NCBI GenBank assembly: GCA_903847415.1
Contig: CAINDR010000017.1
Location: 1 to 40,966 of the forward strand
Reading direction: 5' to 3'
DNA: 40,966 bases
Source: Candidatus Falkowiibacteriota bacterium
GTDB taxonomy: Bacteria > Patescibacteriota > Patescibacteriia > Patescibacteriales > UBA12465
A program made the translations under genes and the position numbers. The notes below the pieces were generated by a model. The model was not told the DNA's origin. It saw only the letters and a program-made list of their open reading frames with translations, and made no database searches. The first letter of the stretch is position 1. The number at the start of each line of letters is the position of its first letter. Positions 2,681 to 38,733 of this stretch are shown in pieces.

Positions 2681-3398
2681 TCTTTTTTCTGAGGCGTAAT
2701 TCAATTAGTTTTTGAATAAACAAGAGACTGTCTCGAAAAACATTTACTTTACTTTTTCGAAATCCAAAGCGATTTTCTGACCAATTGACTGGAATTTCTA
2801 GAATTCTTCCTTGGCTTTCTTTGGTGAAATAAATTAATTCTGTATCAAAAAACCAAAAATTGTCTTTTATTTTTGGGGCAATTTTTTCAAAAAAAGATCG
2901 TCTGATTCCTTTAAAACCGCATTGCAAATCAGAGTAATCATGTTTTAAAATTAAGCGAGACAAGAGGACATAAATTTGTGAACTGGCTTCACGGGCTAAG
3001 GAACGATCTCTTTTTGAGCCAGGCATCATTCGAGAGCCAATTGTGAGATCGTGGGTATTTTGAATAATTGGATTAATTAAATTTGGAATGTTGTCGAGTG
3101 AGACCGCTAAATCAACGTCCATATATACTAAAATATCGGCCAAGCTAGAGAGCCAATATTTTTTAACTGCTTGACCGCGACCCTTTTCTTTATAGATGAT
3201 CGTTTTTACTTGACTTGGTTGTTTCTGCGCTATTTGAAAAGCGAGATTCTCAAATTCAGTAGATGAGCCGTTCACAATAATAATAACTTGCCAATCAAAA
3301 GAAAAGTTTTGTTTTTCGCAATAATTTAAAAGGGCGTCCAAATTTTTTTGGAGAATCAGGGACTCGTTATAGACTGGCAAACAAAATTCAATCTTCAT
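2673..3398 (-). CDS. GT2-family glycosyltransferase, polyprenyl-phosphate sugar synthase type
   Basis: 241 residues with a GT-A fold pattern: LPVYNES at the N-terminus (6-12), YMDVDLAVS carrying the DxD metal/nucleotide-sugar motif (about 92-100), and the GSRM plus LQCGFKG motifs typical of dolichol- or undecaprenyl-phosphate glucose/mannose synthases. There are no C-terminal membrane helices, so it would act at the inner face of the membrane. It makes the lipid-linked sugar that GtrA-like proteins are thought to flip, and a GtrA gene lies 2 kb away. It follows rplA but is separated from it by a strong terminator and has an extended -10 element only six bases before the ATG. Donor sugar and acceptor are not determined. 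Confidence 0.87.
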   Translation of the reverse strand: MKIEFCLPVYNESLILQKNLDALLNYCEKQNFSFDWQVIIIVNGSSTEFENLAFQIAQKQPSQVKTIIYKEKGRGQAVKKYWLSSLADILVYMDVDLAVSLDNIPNLINPIIQNTHDLTIGSRMMPGSKRDRSLAREASSQIYVLLSRLILKHDYSDLQCGFKGIRRSFFEKIAPKIKDNFWFFDTELIYFTKESQGRILEIPVNWSENRFGFRKSKVNVFRDSLLFIQKLIELRLRKKID

Positions 3399-3424: not shown

Positions 3425-3471
3425 TAAAAAAAACGGCCGGTCCAAACCACGGAAATGGTCTAGACCGGCCG
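3425..3471 (-). terminator. Rho-independent terminator of the secE-nusG-rplK-rplA unit
   Basis: Perfect 9-bp GC-rich arms CGGCCGGTC (3434-3442) and GACCGGCCG (3463-3471), an inner ACCA/TGGT pairing, and a minus-strand T-run at 3433-3425. It lies 27 bases after the rplA stop. Confidence 0.92.
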
Positions 3472-3497
3472 CTCTTTATCGGAGCGGTGCGGTTTGC

Positions 3498-4764: not shown

Positions 4765-5307
4765 TTATTTTTTAATCTGTAAGAAATCGAGTTCAACTGG
4801 TGTTTCGCGACCAAAAATAGTGACGGAAACCTTTACTTTACCCTTAGCCTCATCGATTGAGGTAATTTTTCCTTCCATATTTTTGAATGGTCCTTCATTA
4901 ATGGTAACTGGATCACCAATTGCGACATCCATTTTGAACTTAGGATCCTCAACACCCATTCTTTTCTGAAGAGATTTAACTTCTTCTTCACTAATTGGGG
5001 TTGGAATAGTACCAGTACCGATAAAGCCAGTGACATTTGGAGTATTTCGCACAATATACCAAGATTCATCAGTTACTTCCATTTCTACCAAAATATAACC
5101 TGGGAAAATCTTTTCTTCGGTTACTTTTCTTTTGCCATTCTTGATTTTAATTTTTTTTTCGGTTGGAATCAAGATATTAAAAATCTTATCTTCCATGTCG
5201 AGAGACTCAATTCTTTGTTTAAGATTTTGAGCGACATTTTCTTCGTAGCCGGAGTAAGTATGAAGAACATACCAGCGACGACCTTGGTTTAAGAGCTGTT
5301 TGGCCAT
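4765..5307 (-). CDS. nusG: Transcription termination/antitermination factor NusG
   Basis: 180 residues from the ATG at 5307. NusG binds RNA polymerase through its NGN domain (WYVLHTYSGYE at the start, then FPGYILVEM) and couples it to Rho or ribosomal S10 through the KOW domain (GDPVTINEGPF...GKITSID). Both are complete. The longer frame to 5346 would add 13 hydrophobic residues not found in the family, so 5307 is preferred. It lies 65 bp after secE in the standard order. Confidence 0.96.
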   Translation of the reverse strand: MAKQLLNQGRRWYVLHTYSGYEENVAQNLKQRIESLDMEDKIFNILIPTEKKIKIKNGKRKVTEEKIFPGYILVEMEVTDESWYIVRNTPNVTGFIGTGTIPTPISEEEVKSLQKRMGVEDPKFKMDVAIGDPVTINEGPFKNMEGKITSIDEAKGKVKVSVTIFGRETPVELDFLQIKK

Positions 5308-5630: not shown

Positions 5631-5659
5631 ATTTTAGGGAAAATAGACAAGGTTGTCAA
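5631..5659 (-). promoter_or_regulatory. Promoter of secE-nusG-rplK-rplA
   Basis: Minus-strand TTGACA (5659-5654), 17-bp spacer, TAAAAT (5636-5631). The leader to secE is about 65 nt. Confidence 0.85.
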
Positions 5660-8641: not shown

Positions 8642-9331
8642 ATGCCTTTATTTGTCGTTGGAACACCAATTGGTAATTTGGAAGATCTCAGTTTTCGGGC
8701 GGTTCGCATCCTAAAGGAAGCGGATTATGTTTTGTGTGAGGATACTCGCATCACTCGAACATTGTTGGCACACTATGAATTAAAAACACCAACTGTTTCC
8801 TATCATCAACATTCAGGACTTAGTCGGACTGACCAAATTGTTTCTTGGTTAAAAGAAGGGAAGAGTTTAGCACTTGTTTCTGATGCTGGAACACCAGGAA
8901 TCTCTGATCCAGGCGCCGCCTTAGTCGAATTGGTGCGCAATGAATGTGGTGATGAAGTGAAAATTGAATCTGTTCCTGGTCCGAGTGCTTTGGCGACCGC
9001 AATTTCCATTGCTGGAGTCGGCTGTGAAAGATTTTTATTTCTAGGTTTTTTGCCTCATAAGAAGGGAAGACAAACGATGTTAAAACAGATTATTGCCAGC
9101 GAATATCCTGCCGTGGTTTATGAATCAAAGCATCGAGTTTTAAAATTATTGAATGAATTAATTGTTTTGGGAGAAAATTTTCAAGTGACTATTTGTCGCG
9201 AATTAACTAAGAAATTTGAAAGTGTTTATCACGGTTCACCATCCGAGTTGTTAGCGCTATTTGATGCCGATGCTCTAATGGGGAAGGGTGAATTTGTGGT
9301 GATTATTAGAAAAGAAAAAAAGAAAAAATAA
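8642..9331 (+). CDS. rsmI: 16S rRNA (cytidine(1402)-2'-O)-methyltransferase RsmI
   Basis: 229 residues. RsmI adds the 2'-O-methyl group to C1402 of 16S rRNA at the ribosomal P site, using S-adenosylmethionine. Family signatures are VGTPIGNLEDLSFRA (6-20), CEDTRITR (32-39), VSDAGTPGISDPG (79-91) and VPGPSA (110-115). The protein is shorter than the E. coli enzyme (about 286), lacking much of the C-terminal extension, as small genomes often do, and ends in a Lys-rich tail. Confidence 0.95.
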   Translation: MPLFVVGTPIGNLEDLSFRAVRILKEADYVLCEDTRITRTLLAHYELKTPTVSYHQHSGLSRTDQIVSWLKEGKSLALVSDAGTPGISDPGAALVELVRNECGDEVKIESVPGPSALATAISIAGVGCERFLFLGFLPHKKGRQTMLKQIIASEYPAVVYESKHRVLKLLNELIVLGENFQVTICRELTKKFESVYHGSPSELLALFDADALMGKGEFVVIIRKEKKKK

Positions 9332-9370: not shown

Positions 9371-9426
9371 GAAAAAGGCTCCCATGCGGGACTAACCCCG
9401 CAGAGAACCTAATTCGTCGTAATTCT
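9371..9426 (-). ncRNA. Candidate small RNA of about 55 nt in the rsmI-metG gap
   Basis: The minus strand has a perfect consensus promoter (9461-9433), and only about 20 nt after the expected start (near 9426) a strong terminator hairpin begins. Arms are 9410-9403 and 9383-9376 (8 bp with G-U pairs), one bulged base, then TGCGGG/CCCGCA (6 bp) with the loop GTTAGT, followed by TTTTT. No open reading frame fits. On the plus strand the hairpin has no T-run, so it cannot be the rsmI terminator. A short abundant RNA is the simplest reading; function unknown. Confidence 0.65.
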
Positions 9427-9432
9427 ATTGTT

Positions 9433-9461
9433 ATTATATCTTGAATAATAGATTATGTCAA
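9433..9461 (-). promoter_or_regulatory. Consensus sigma70 promoter of the small RNA
   Basis: TTGACA (9461-9456), 17-bp spacer, TATAAT (9438-9433): both hexamers perfect, the best promoter in the window. It points away from metG and towards the 3' end of rsmI. Confidence 0.88.
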
Positions 9462-9504: not shown

Positions 9505-10938
9505 ATGTCAAACAATTTTTATATCACAACTACCCTGCCATACACCAATTCCGATCCGCATATCGGTTTTGCGGCAGAAATTATTAAGGCCGATGTGATT
9601 GCACGGATTGAAAGAAATCTCGGCAAAGAAGTCGTTTTTAATACTGGCACCGATGAACATGGTTTAAAAATTTATCAAAAAGCTCAAGAAGCTGGAATGG
9701 AGCCTCGTGCTTTTTGTGATTCTTATGCCGATAAATTCCGATCCCTTAAAGAGGCCCTTGATTTGAGTTTTACCAATTTTATTCGTACTTCCGATAACCA
9801 CCATATTCAGGCGGCTCAGGAATTTTGGCGTCGTTGCGCTACTAATGATGATATTTATAAAAAAACTTATCAAGTTAAATATTGCGTTGGTTGTGAAATG
9901 GAGAAGACTGATTCCGAACTAATAGACGGACATTGTCCCCTTCATCCTCACCAAGAGTTAGAGTTAATTGATGAAGAAAATTATTTTTTCCGTTTTTCAA
10001 AATATCAAGAAGCGCTTTTGAAACTTTATTCAAGTCGACCAGATTTTGTTATTCCCAGTAATCGCTTAACGGAAATTAAGAATTTTGTCGCTGGTGGTTT
10101 GCAAGATTTTTCGATTTCTCGCTTGGCTAGTAAAATGCCAAACGGTGTTCCAGTGCCTGGTGATGAAGCTCAGGTGATGTATGTTTGGTTTGATGCTTTA
10201 GCAAATTATATTTCCACCCTTGGTTGGCCAGAAGATCAAAAAAACTTTGCAGATTTTTGGCCGGCAGTGCAAGTTTGTGGCAAGGATAATTTACGTCAGC
10301 AAAGTGCGATGTGGCAAGCAATGCTGGCTTCGGCTGGATTGCCATTTTCAGAGCAAGTCTTGGTGTTTGGTTTCTTGTCGTTAAATGGTCAGAAAATTAG
10401 CAAGAGCACCGGAAACACTATTGATCCCTTTGAAATGGCTGAAAAATACGGGGCTGACGCTATTCGTTACTATTTGTTAACAGAAATTCCAATGTTTGAA
10501 GATGGTGATTTTTCTGAAGAGCGTTTGGCTCAAAAATATAATGCCGATTTAGCTAATGGACTTGGCAATTTAGTGGCGCGAGTTTCAAATTTGTTAGAAA
10601 AAAATAATATTAAGACCAATTTTGATGTTAATAAAGCTGAATCATTCGCAAAAGATTTTTATTTGACTTATCGCCAAGATAATTATCGATTTGGTTTTTT
10701 GCTGCAAAAAATTTGGCAAGAGATTGCTAAGAATAATGAACAACTCTCCAGCACAACTCCGTGGAAATTAACTGATCAAAAAGAAATTGAAAATATTTTA
10801 GTGCCAATTACTGAAAGTATTTTAGGAATTGGTTACTTGTTGCTGCCTTTCATGCCTTCTTGCGCTGAAAAAATTGTGTCACAATTCTCAGAAGAGCAAA
10901 TTATTAAAGGTGAGTCTTTGTTCCCACGTTTAAGTTAA
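9505..10938 (+). CDS. metG: Methionyl-tRNA synthetase
   Basis: 477 residues, the short single-chain form without the C-terminal tRNA-binding domain. Class I signatures: HIGF at 19-22, where HIGH is usual, and KISKS at 297-301. A zinc knuckle is CVGC (127-130) with C144 and H147, where the fourth ligand is commonly Cys. YVWFDALANY (226-235) and the anticodon-binding helical domain follow. The enzyme charges tRNA-Met in the cytoplasm. It heads a run metG-cvpA-tsaC-ctpA with small gaps, probably one transcript. The promoter was not clear. Confidence 0.96.
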   Translation: MSNNFYITTTLPYTNSDPHIGFAAEIIKADVIARIERNLGKEVVFNTGTDEHGLKIYQKAQEAGMEPRAFCDSYADKFRSLKEALDLSFTNFIRTSDNHHIQAAQEFWRRCATNDDIYKKTYQVKYCVGCEMEKTDSELIDGHCPLHPHQELELIDEENYFFRFSKYQEALLKLYSSRPDFVIPSNRLTEIKNFVAGGLQDFSISRLASKMPNGVPVPGDEAQVMYVWFDALANYISTLGWPEDQKNFADFWPAVQVCGKDNLRQQSAMWQAMLASAGLPFSEQVLVFGFLSLNGQKISKSTGNTIDPFEMAEKYGADAIRYYLLTEIPMFEDGDFSEERLAQKYNADLANGLGNLVARVSNLLEKNNIKTNFDVNKAESFAKDFYLTYRQDNYRFGFLLQKIWQEIAKNNEQLSSTTPWKLTDQKEIENILVPITESILGIGYLLLPFMPSCAEKIVSQFSEEQIIKGESLFPRLS

Positions 10939-17893: not shown

Positions 17894-17938
17894 AATTTGG
17901 TTAAGATGCGGGGTTAATTCCGCTTGTCTTTATTATTC

Positions 17939-34227: not shown

Positions 34228-34604
34228 GTTAGAAGGGCAAGCGGACGGTTGCGCTGGATATTTTTTATTCAGTGAGGAAAGTCCGGACTTCACAAAAAGA
34301 TAGTGGATAACGTCCACCAGGGGAAACCCTAGGGAAAGTGTCACAGAGACAATACTAATTCGTTAATTTAACGGATGAAAGGTGAAAAGTTGCTCGATGT
34401 TGGTTAAACAGCTACGAGTTTCGGCCGTCGGTGACGACGTGCCGTGGTAAACCCTATCTGGAGCAAGAGCAAATTCCAAAGATTTCTTTGGAAAAAAAGT
34501 AGCTCGCTTGATCTAATAAGTAATTATTAGGCTAGATAAATAGCCGTCCAATGAGGTTCGTCCTCGTTGACAGAATCCGGCTTATAGCTTGCCCCAATTC
34601 TAAC
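34228..34604 (+). ncRNA. rnpB: RNase P RNA, bacterial class A
   Basis: The RNA subunit of RNase P removes 5' leaders from tRNA precursors. P1 is formed by GTTAGAA...GGGCAAGC at the 5' end and GCTTGCCCC...TTCTAAC at the 3' end. The universally conserved P4 strands are GAGGAAAGTCCGGAC (about 34273-34287) and ACAGAATCCGG (about 34570-34580). J-segments such as CACAGAGACAATAC and GTAAACCC are also recognised. Length about 377 fits class A. There is no terminator after it; the sugar transferase ATG lies 15 bases on, so the 3' end must come from processing. Confidence 0.96.
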
Positions 34605-37160: not shown

Positions 37161-38296
37161 AGATCGGGGTTGATATCAGAGCTTTAATGGACGAACGATA
37201 TAGTGGTGTTTCTGCTTACGCCGAGCAACTTTTGCGAGAAATAATTCATCAAGACCAAAAAAACGAATATTATTTATTTTATAACTCTTTTAAAGACCTT
37301 CATCCTCGTTTCTCTTCCTGGGAGAGTGAAAGAGTAAAAGTGCTTGGGACACATTTTCCAAATAAAGTATTTAATTATATTCTGCAAAAAGTATTTGGTC
37401 GTCCTTTCTTGGATGAAGTCCTCGGTGGTGTTGATCTTTTTTGGTCGCCCCATTTTAATTTTTCCCATTTTTCAAAAAATACTAAAAATATTTTAACAGT
37501 TCATGATTTGTCTTTTTTGCGGGCACCGGAATTTTTTTCTTGGCGCAAAAATTGTTGGCACCGTTTACTTGGAATTAAAAACTTAATTAATCGTTCAGTT
37601 AAAATTATTGCTATTTCTGAAAATACAAAGCTGGATTTGATTGATCTCTTTCAGGTACCAAATGAGAAAATTCAAGTTATTTACTCTGGATTTAACTCTT
37701 TAAAATTAAGTGATGGTGAAAATTTCAATACCGATTTTGTTAATAAGCACCAAATTAGGACTGGTTTTTTGTTATTTGTTGGCAATATTGAACCGCGAAA
37801 AAATCTTGATGGTCTCATCAAGGCTTATGAAATTTTGCGAGAACAAAATTTAGAAATTAGCAATCAATTAGTTTTAGCCGGCGCCCCTGGTTGGCGCAAT
37901 CAACATATTTATCAGGCGGCAAAAAACTCAAAATTTTCGCAAGACATTATTTTTACTGGGTATATTCAAGAGGAGGAAAAAGTTTTTCTATATCGTCAGG
38001 CGTCTGTTTTTGTTTTTCCTTCTTTCTATGAAGGGTTTGGTTTTCCTCCGCTCGAGGCGATGTCTTATGGATTACCAGTAATTGCTTCAAATACTTCTTC
38101 GGTGCCGGAGGTGGTTGGTGACGCCGCTCTCTTAGTCAACCCAGCTTTTCCTAGTGAAATTGCTTCAGCACTTAAAATTGTCTTAAGTGATCAAAAAACA
38201 AGAGAAAGTTTGCAGCTTGCTGGCGCAAAAAGATTAGCTATTTTTTCTTGGGAGAAAACAGCAAAAGAATATTTACAATTATTTAATTCGTTATGA
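37157..38296 (+). CDS. GT4-family glycosyltransferase (second)
   Basis: 379 residues. GT-B fold: [21 protein letters not shown] at the start; LTVHDLSFL mid; [19 protein letters not shown]; the E-x7-E motif [20 protein letters not shown] and [15 protein letters not shown], in the style of WbaZ/WcaI-like mannosyl- or rhamnosyltransferases. Overlaps both neighbours by 4 bp (upstream GT4 and downstream dtd), so it belongs to a translationally coupled run. Confidence 0.9.
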
Positions 38297-38733
38297 GAGC
38301 GGTTATTCAAAGAGTTAGTCAGGCAAAAGTAAAAGTAAATCAGGAATTGATAAGTGAAATTAATTCTGGTTTTTTAGTTTTTTTAGCTATCAAAAGCGAT
38401 GATCAAGAAGAGTTGATTGAAAAGTTAGCTGACAAAATTGTTAATTTGCGAATTTTTGAAGATCAGAGTGGAAAAATGAATCTTTCCATTAAAGAAATTA
38501 ATGGTGAAATATTGGTAGTTTCTCAATTTACTCTTTATGGCGATGTTCGCCGCGGTAATCGTCCCAGTTTTATTGAGTCTGCTCGTCCAGAAATTGCCGA
38601 ACCATTTTATGAGAAATTTATTCAAATATTATTAAGCAAGGGGCTTCAAAAAGTAGTTAGTGGTAAATTTGGTGCTCTGATGTCAGTCGAATTGGTAAAC
38701 GATGGTCCAACTACAATTATTATTGATTTATAA
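38293..38733 (+). CDS. dtd: D-aminoacyl-tRNA deacylase
   Basis: 146 residues, full DTD length. It cleaves D-amino acids, and glycine mischarged on tRNA-Ala, from tRNA. Motifs SQFTLYGD (77-84) and the NDGPTT (136-141; usually NxGPVT, Gly-Pro kept) that form the chiral-proofreading pocket are present, along with [14 protein letters not shown] 4-bp overlap with the glycosyltransferase gene couples it to the polysaccharide run; the pairing looks like genome compaction, not function. Confidence 0.96.

Follow-up and report, generated by a model that had tools for sequence, protein, structure and literature searches.

The locus considered here raises the question of why a promoter of perfect consensus should drive a product of only some 55 nt. 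A sequence-only reading of the 40,966-nt stretch of DNA analysed (hereafter the window) had singled out TTGACA-17-TATAAT as its only full consensus promoter, followed by ~55 nt that end in a 14-bp terminator hairpin with a GTTAGT loop, antisense to nothing and containing no ORF, and had proposed a new small RNA. Each of these observations was borne out. An exact TTGACA-N16–18-TATAAT occurs once in the ~41 kb window against 0.05 expected by shuffling, and the whole genome carries 15 exact consensus promoters against 3 for a reversed control pattern. Folding returned the hairpin of 14 bp, which has a GUUAGU loop and a single U bulge and runs into UUUUU; the 61-nt stretch containing it reaches −27.4 kcal/mol (z −4.4), with no shuffle as good. 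A terminator scan skips this hairpin because of the bulge. The RNA lies between rsmI, which ends at 9331, and metG, which starts at 9505, both on the plus strand, and at the locus we found neither a gene antisense to the RNA nor an ORF within it. Its features are listed in Table 1.

Table 1 Coordinates of the predicted small RNA gene and its promoter in the window.
Feature	Position	Strand	Basis or remark
sRNA promoter TTGACA-17-TATAAT	9433..9461	minus	exact consensus
-35 TTGACA	9461-9456	minus	17 nt from -10
-10 TATAAT	9438-9433	minus	
sRNA gene, ~55 nt, orphan member of the NYN-associated RNA family	9372..9426	minus	start inferred from promoter
Unpaired 5' box ATTACGA (family consensus ATYACNA)	9417..9423	minus	at the RNA's inferred 5' end
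Hairpin GGUUCUCUGCGGG-GUUAGU-CCCGCAuGGGAGCC, apical loop conserved	9377..9409	minus	MFE fold
U-tract, completes intrinsic terminator	9372..9376	minus	sequence; kept across family

Several ordinary identities could be set aside. At the window RNA no Rfam 15 family reaches its gathering score; the best sub-threshold match, Srn266, scores 26.7 bits against 63 required and falls on the opposite strand. This and the sub-threshold matches to U5 and the L20 leader are chance-level, ruling out a known Rfam RNA at gathering score. The window contains no tRNA or tmRNA, and a multicopy repeat is excluded because the window’s genome holds one real copy only. A hairpin at 17908–17923 with a similar GCGGGGUUA loop has no family promoter or box and gave no family match. 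Chance coincidence of promoter and hairpin is excluded by the conservation and covariation described below.

The sole Rfam match in the window is a complete bacterial class A RNase P RNA gene (34233–34600, plus strand, 219 bits). A very long terminator-like hairpin at 3429–3476 on the minus strand (GGCCGGTCTAGACC..., 20 pairs counted) is the strongest of the window’s first half. At 5631–5659 (minus) an 11/12 promoter followed by a small hairpin lies upstream of a likely secE–nusG operon; this element was also flagged by the family scan, yet it lacks the conserved loop. Elsewhere in the same genome, contig C18 carries two identical 29-nt consensus promoters (37834–37862 and 38533–38561), 699 bases apart.

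Nucleotide searches recovered a copy 86% identical in a genome of the same genus (G002), likewise beside metG, and one 82% identical in another genus (G032), between a PAS-like ORF and a PIF1-like helicase. The G002 copy retains the −35, the 17-nt spacing and the −10 despite a diverged spacer sequence; over its first 25 nt its RNA is identical to that of the window, and the differences in the stem retain pairing. A covariance model built from three sequences (R1), run on 111 genomes from the order, gave 23 matches with E ≤ 0.1, ~18 of them clearly real and nearly all with their own promoter. A second model built from 18 sequences (R2) had matches in 109 of the 381 class genomes at E ≤ 0.01 and in 35 of 380 genomes drawn from the phylum at E ≤ 0.001. 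The window RNA matched R2 over the full model length in the class-wide search (65.5 bits, E 2.4e-9). The sequence-only reading had suggested a covariance search in related genomes between rsmI and metG: the RNA proved to be conserved, with the G002 copy near these two genes, but not confined to the gap between them. It had also made its proposal depend on conservation of promoter plus hairpin, and both are kept within the genus, the order, the class and other phyla.

Compensatory base changes support the predicted stem. Among 18 members, changes on both sides occur in 10 of 13 pairs, with 35 cells against 11 when shuffled (0 of 500 shuffles). The corresponding counts are 255 against 69 for 104 members, whose alignment had been fitted to the model, and 30 against 7 for a separately aligned set from other phyla. 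A promoter with at least 10 of 12 matches precedes 85 of 102 class members as against 1.3% of mononucleotide-shuffled upstream sequences. Promoter spacing places an unpaired box, AUYACNA, at the inferred 5' end of the RNA; its positions carry 0.6–2.0 bits each, compared with <0.5 immediately upstream, and neither the T at position 2 nor the A at position 7 varies among 92 class members. The apical loop and U-tract are also conserved in the family. When 20 diverse family loci were compared with Rfam 15, none matched at gathering score, so that the family is apparently undescribed and, as tested, missing from that release. By these comparisons the window locus is a real, conserved RNA gene, and the claim of a new small RNA is supported.

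The family has a regular companion. At most loci the other strand carries a gene for a ~170-aa NYN-domain (PIN-like) protein that converges on the RNA, and the two overlap at the gene's 3' end. Three such proteins from relatives (the gene is lost in the window) match Pfam PF01936 at 36–51 bits against a cut-off of 24.2, and four Asp and one Asn of the active site are invariant or nearly so across 87 NYN proteins. An AlphaFold2 model (pLDDT 93.7) has a soluble nuclease fold; among solved structures it is closest to VPA0982 (2qip) and to the NYN domain of the RNase MARF1. Comparison thereby shows the partner to be a predicted NYN-domain protein with a conserved nuclease active site. PADLOC recognised it only through a weak generic NYN match, and NCBIfam has no family for it.

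Of 90 close NYN homologues (≥200 bits) in the class, 75 lie within 1 kb of an RNA match. All 93 adjacent RNA–NYN pairs are tail to tail, and the RNA overlaps nyn coding sequence in 67 of the 69 intact pairs. Most of the inspected NYN loci without an R2 match have a variant RNA in the same place with promoter, box and hairpin, a call made partly by eye. By a count also made partly by eye, NYN occurs without a recognisable RNA in about 3 of ~130 cases, namely L293, where NYN is intact, L272, where its C-terminus is replaced, and L288, which has an internal stop. An NYN reading frame on the complementary strand does not by itself explain why the RNA is conserved, because conservation extends to solitary copies and to the unpaired box. 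In L277 (G143:C3; RNA at 1117–1215, minus), the sole such case seen, the RNA lies downstream of NYN on the same strand with its own promoter. It therefore cannot be antisense to nyn and has no overlap with its coding sequence, making this locus useful for telling antisense from direct action. What comparison shows overall is a predicted ~55-nt RNA with its own strong sigma-70 promoter and terminator, belonging to a widespread family linked to an NYN-domain protein.

NYN loci were also collected outside the class set by a separate NYN-sequence scan of GTDB contigs, which gave 80 loci titled Omnitrophota, Elusimicrobia, Chloroflexi (Chloroflexota), WOR-3, Nitrospirae, Planctomycetes, Aminicenantes and many Patescibacteria groups. 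A mechanical scan for box, promoter, hairpin and T-run placed an RNA at the NYN 3' end in 67 of the 80, against 8 matches at other places in 389 kb, two of them additional members of the family. The typical form outside Patescibacteria is AUCACGAUGAGAGGC-UAUCC-AAAGGG-UUUCGU-CCCGCGG-UAA-UGCCUCUC. As judged from these matches, the RNA is confined neither to Patescibacteria nor to the rsmI–metG gap. Phyla are mixed in the NYN tree, with 29 phylum changes against a minimum of 24 and a shuffled mean of 32.6, which suggests transfer of the module; almost every member was found in a draft or metagenome assembly, where binning errors could inflate the cross-phylum spread.

Viral sequences carry the gene too, with NYN present in nine viral contigs. 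In L315 and L320 it directly follows a CI-like repressor (HTH plus Peptidase_S24) and precedes an integrase, called by a Pfam match in L320 and by resemblance in L315, and in L312 it sits between portal and terminase genes. All three are typical prophage cargo sites, and in each the RNA lies at the NYN 3' end. Searches of plasmid and phage isolate records found no NYN relatives. Patchy presence, the mixing of phyla in the NYN tree and the prophage cargo sites are consistent with the character of a mobile defence element.

A second RNA type, with the apical sequence ACGGYUAACUACCUAAGG or close to it in place of a GGNYYNGUCC loop, goes with a more distant NYN clade that includes several of the prophage members (L301, L302, L304, L305, L307, L314, L315, L317, L319 and L320).

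RNA and protein do not depend on each other equally. The NYN gene is intact beside 69 of the 102 class RNAs, broken beside 18 and absent from 15, so the RNA can outlive the protein. Promoter quality and model score are alike across these three groups, a weak test of function because the model search favours well-kept copies. An RNA that outlives NYN, paired with an NYN that hardly ever occurs without the RNA, would show the pattern expected of an inhibitor and its toxin. The same asymmetry makes it less likely that the RNA is itself the toxin or no more than a cofactor for NYN.

Among individual loci, L057, L067, L068, L078 and L153 have an intact RNA next to NYN genes with large internal deletions, which resembles repeated loss of the protein half. 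In L065 (1511–2527, minus) a PfkB-like kinase frame continues into the RNA hairpin and closes with ...EKAPDADGTAQGSFS, a tail shared with long NYN versions; this frame is apparently a fusion that followed NYN loss.

The window copy belongs with the solitary RNAs. The gene order in G002 is metG–RNA–NYN–membrane protein–rsmI and in the window metG–RNA–rsmI, and the window’s genome (95.6% complete) contains no NYN gene of the RNA-linked subfamily; we therefore regard the window RNA as an orphan. A different NYN gene in that genome (L075, G000:C53:496–942), between apparent rpsO and pnp, was rejected as the missing partner, being of another NYN subfamily with no family RNA beside it. Where G002 has unpaired AA/GA, the window stem reads GCGGG/CCCGC. 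That the promoter matches the consensus fully, the 5' region is intact and the stem has been rebuilt with its pairs suggests that the window RNA still works. That it is instead the decaying relic of a module, its hairpin now serving as a terminator, would fit the loss of NYN from both locus and genome and is compatible with the family-level explanation given below. We consider it doubtful, given the perfect consensus promoter, the 25 leading nucleotides shared with G002 and stem differences that retain pairing.

The RNA is nearly always tail to tail with the NYN gene and therefore probably restrains the NYN enzyme. On balance, and by a small measure, we favour the RNA as an inhibitor (antitoxin) of the NYN ribonuclease in a type-III-like toxin–antitoxin or abortive-infection module, acting by direct binding and possibly as an antisense RNA too. 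We hypothesize that NYN is a growth-inhibiting ribonuclease and that the RNA, presumed abundant, binds it through the unpaired 5' AUYACNA box and the apical loop and so holds it inactive. Shut-off of host transcription or loss of the module would then deplete the unstable RNA and free the nuclease. Pairing of the RNA with the 3' end of nyn mRNA could add a second layer of control, for which the near-constant coding overlap may leave room. In the window species NYN would have been deleted and the RNA left as a solitary antitoxin, either a relic or a protection against incoming NYN modules.

Other accounts of the pairing must be weighed against inhibition by binding. Overlap at the 3' end that is almost universal and tail to tail is also expected of a cis-antisense system, and this speaks against the inhibitor reading. 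The RNA might act solely on the 3' end of nyn mRNA, by RNase III exposure or an expression block, and leave the protein unbound, in the manner of a type I system. The orientation of every adjacent class pair and the coding overlap fit this account, as does the apical loop of many class members, which by our own reading fits a YUNR-like U-turn, a feature of antisense RNAs. A cis-antisense RNA matches its target with any sequence it may have, and would not need the unpaired box and loop to be conserved from phylum to phylum, as they are; box, promoter and hairpin are retained in solitary RNAs, and in L277 the RNA is on the same strand as NYN. We thus judge a purely antisense role unlikely. Direct recognition of the RNA by NYN is favoured over it because of these conserved unpaired bases, the solitary copies and the L277 orientation, and inhibition would probably proceed by direct RNA binding, by analogy with AbiF/RCd22.

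The invariant single-stranded 5' box, the prophage and defence-like settings and the near absence of NYN without RNA would also suit an effector ribonucleoprotein, in which NYN could act, for instance on phage RNA, only with the RNA as its cofactor or fixed guide. A CRISPR-linked NYN protein trims crRNA (PMC11346440). Without its nuclease such an RNA should be useless, yet NYN is broken or missing for 33 of the 102 class RNAs, whose promoters are no worse, and the box does not show the variation of a reprogrammable guide; this role appears quite unlikely. Least probable of all, in our estimate, is a host regulatory RNA that acts in trans on cellular mRNAs and is merely processed or degraded by NYN. 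Solitary copies, that of the window among them, a free 5' end and a strong promoter agree with it, but a core regulator would not be expected to be so patchily distributed, apparently transferred and carried as prophage cargo, and the genes flanking solitary copies have nothing obvious in common.

Hardly any work exists on the small RNAs of Patescibacteria, and only a few protein folds are represented among known RNA-controlled toxins. Should the inhibitor reading be true, RNA antitoxins gain one nuclease fold and a common RNA family, and many ‘hypothetical NYN’ genes and unexplained metagenome hairpins gain a label. It would also mean that a lone perfect promoter with a hairpin can be what is left of a mobile module after its other half has gone. 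More tentatively, and with somewhat less than even confidence, we propose a new class of cross-phylum module in which an NYN/PIN-like RNase is held by a ~55-nt RNA with a 5' AUYACNA box, serving phage defence or addiction in candidate phyla and prophages, with solitary RNAs conferring immunity. In open-licence literature no link between an NYN protein and an RNA antitoxin was found.

Known systems offer partial parallels. In a C. difficile prophage, the toxic protein AbiF is neutralised by direct binding of the adjacent RNA RCd22, which also lowers AbiF expression (PMC12373285). Like the window family, AbiF (Abi_2)/RCd22 is prophage cargo with a small structured RNA, linked to a protein gene, that has its own sigma-70-type promoter and terminator. 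AbiF, however, is unrelated to NYN, and RCd22 lies upstream on the same strand, is co-transcribed and consists of two repeats. The abiF RNA motif (RF03085) matched neither the window RNA nor the 20 diverse loci, whose partner is NYN and not Abi_2. A Bacteroides fragilis NYN ribonuclease in a type III CRISPR locus acts on small RNA (PMC11346440), again pairing an NYN domain with a small RNA in a defence setting, but it has no small RNA gene of its own. VapC and other PIN-domain toxins likewise combine a PIN-like nuclease with a dedicated antitoxin (putative here), but VapB is a protein, whereas the only constant neighbour of NYN is an RNA. In the type I systems TxpA/RatA and BsrG/SR4, a convergent antisense RNA covers the 3' end of the toxin gene and pairs with it, and the toxins are short hydrophobic peptides. 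The convergent overlap is shared with our family; the ~170-aa partner with a soluble nuclease fold and the conserved unpaired bases of the RNA are not.

Type III systems (ToxIN, CptIN, TenpIN, AbiQ) resemble the module in joining an RNase to a small RNA that is encoded beside the protein gene and has its own terminator, and in being mobile and linked to phage defence. Their RNA is upstream, co-transcribed and usually a tandem-repeat pseudoknot, whereas the NYN-associated RNA folds into a plain hairpin with an internal loop and runs convergently from a promoter of its own, an arrangement that speaks against the inhibitor reading; the putative toxin is NYN/PIN-like and not a ToxN/AbiQ-fold endoribonuclease. 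Because toxin fold and gene order differ, the module would be, by function, a new variant of RNA-controlled toxin systems outside the defined type III families. Most family RNAs are single units, and a few are tandem (L105, L245 and L309). A Taylorbacteria contig (L198) holds an array of modules, with three RNA copies within 4 kb (1251–1309, 3003–3062 and 4813–4872), at least two of them with an NYN gene.
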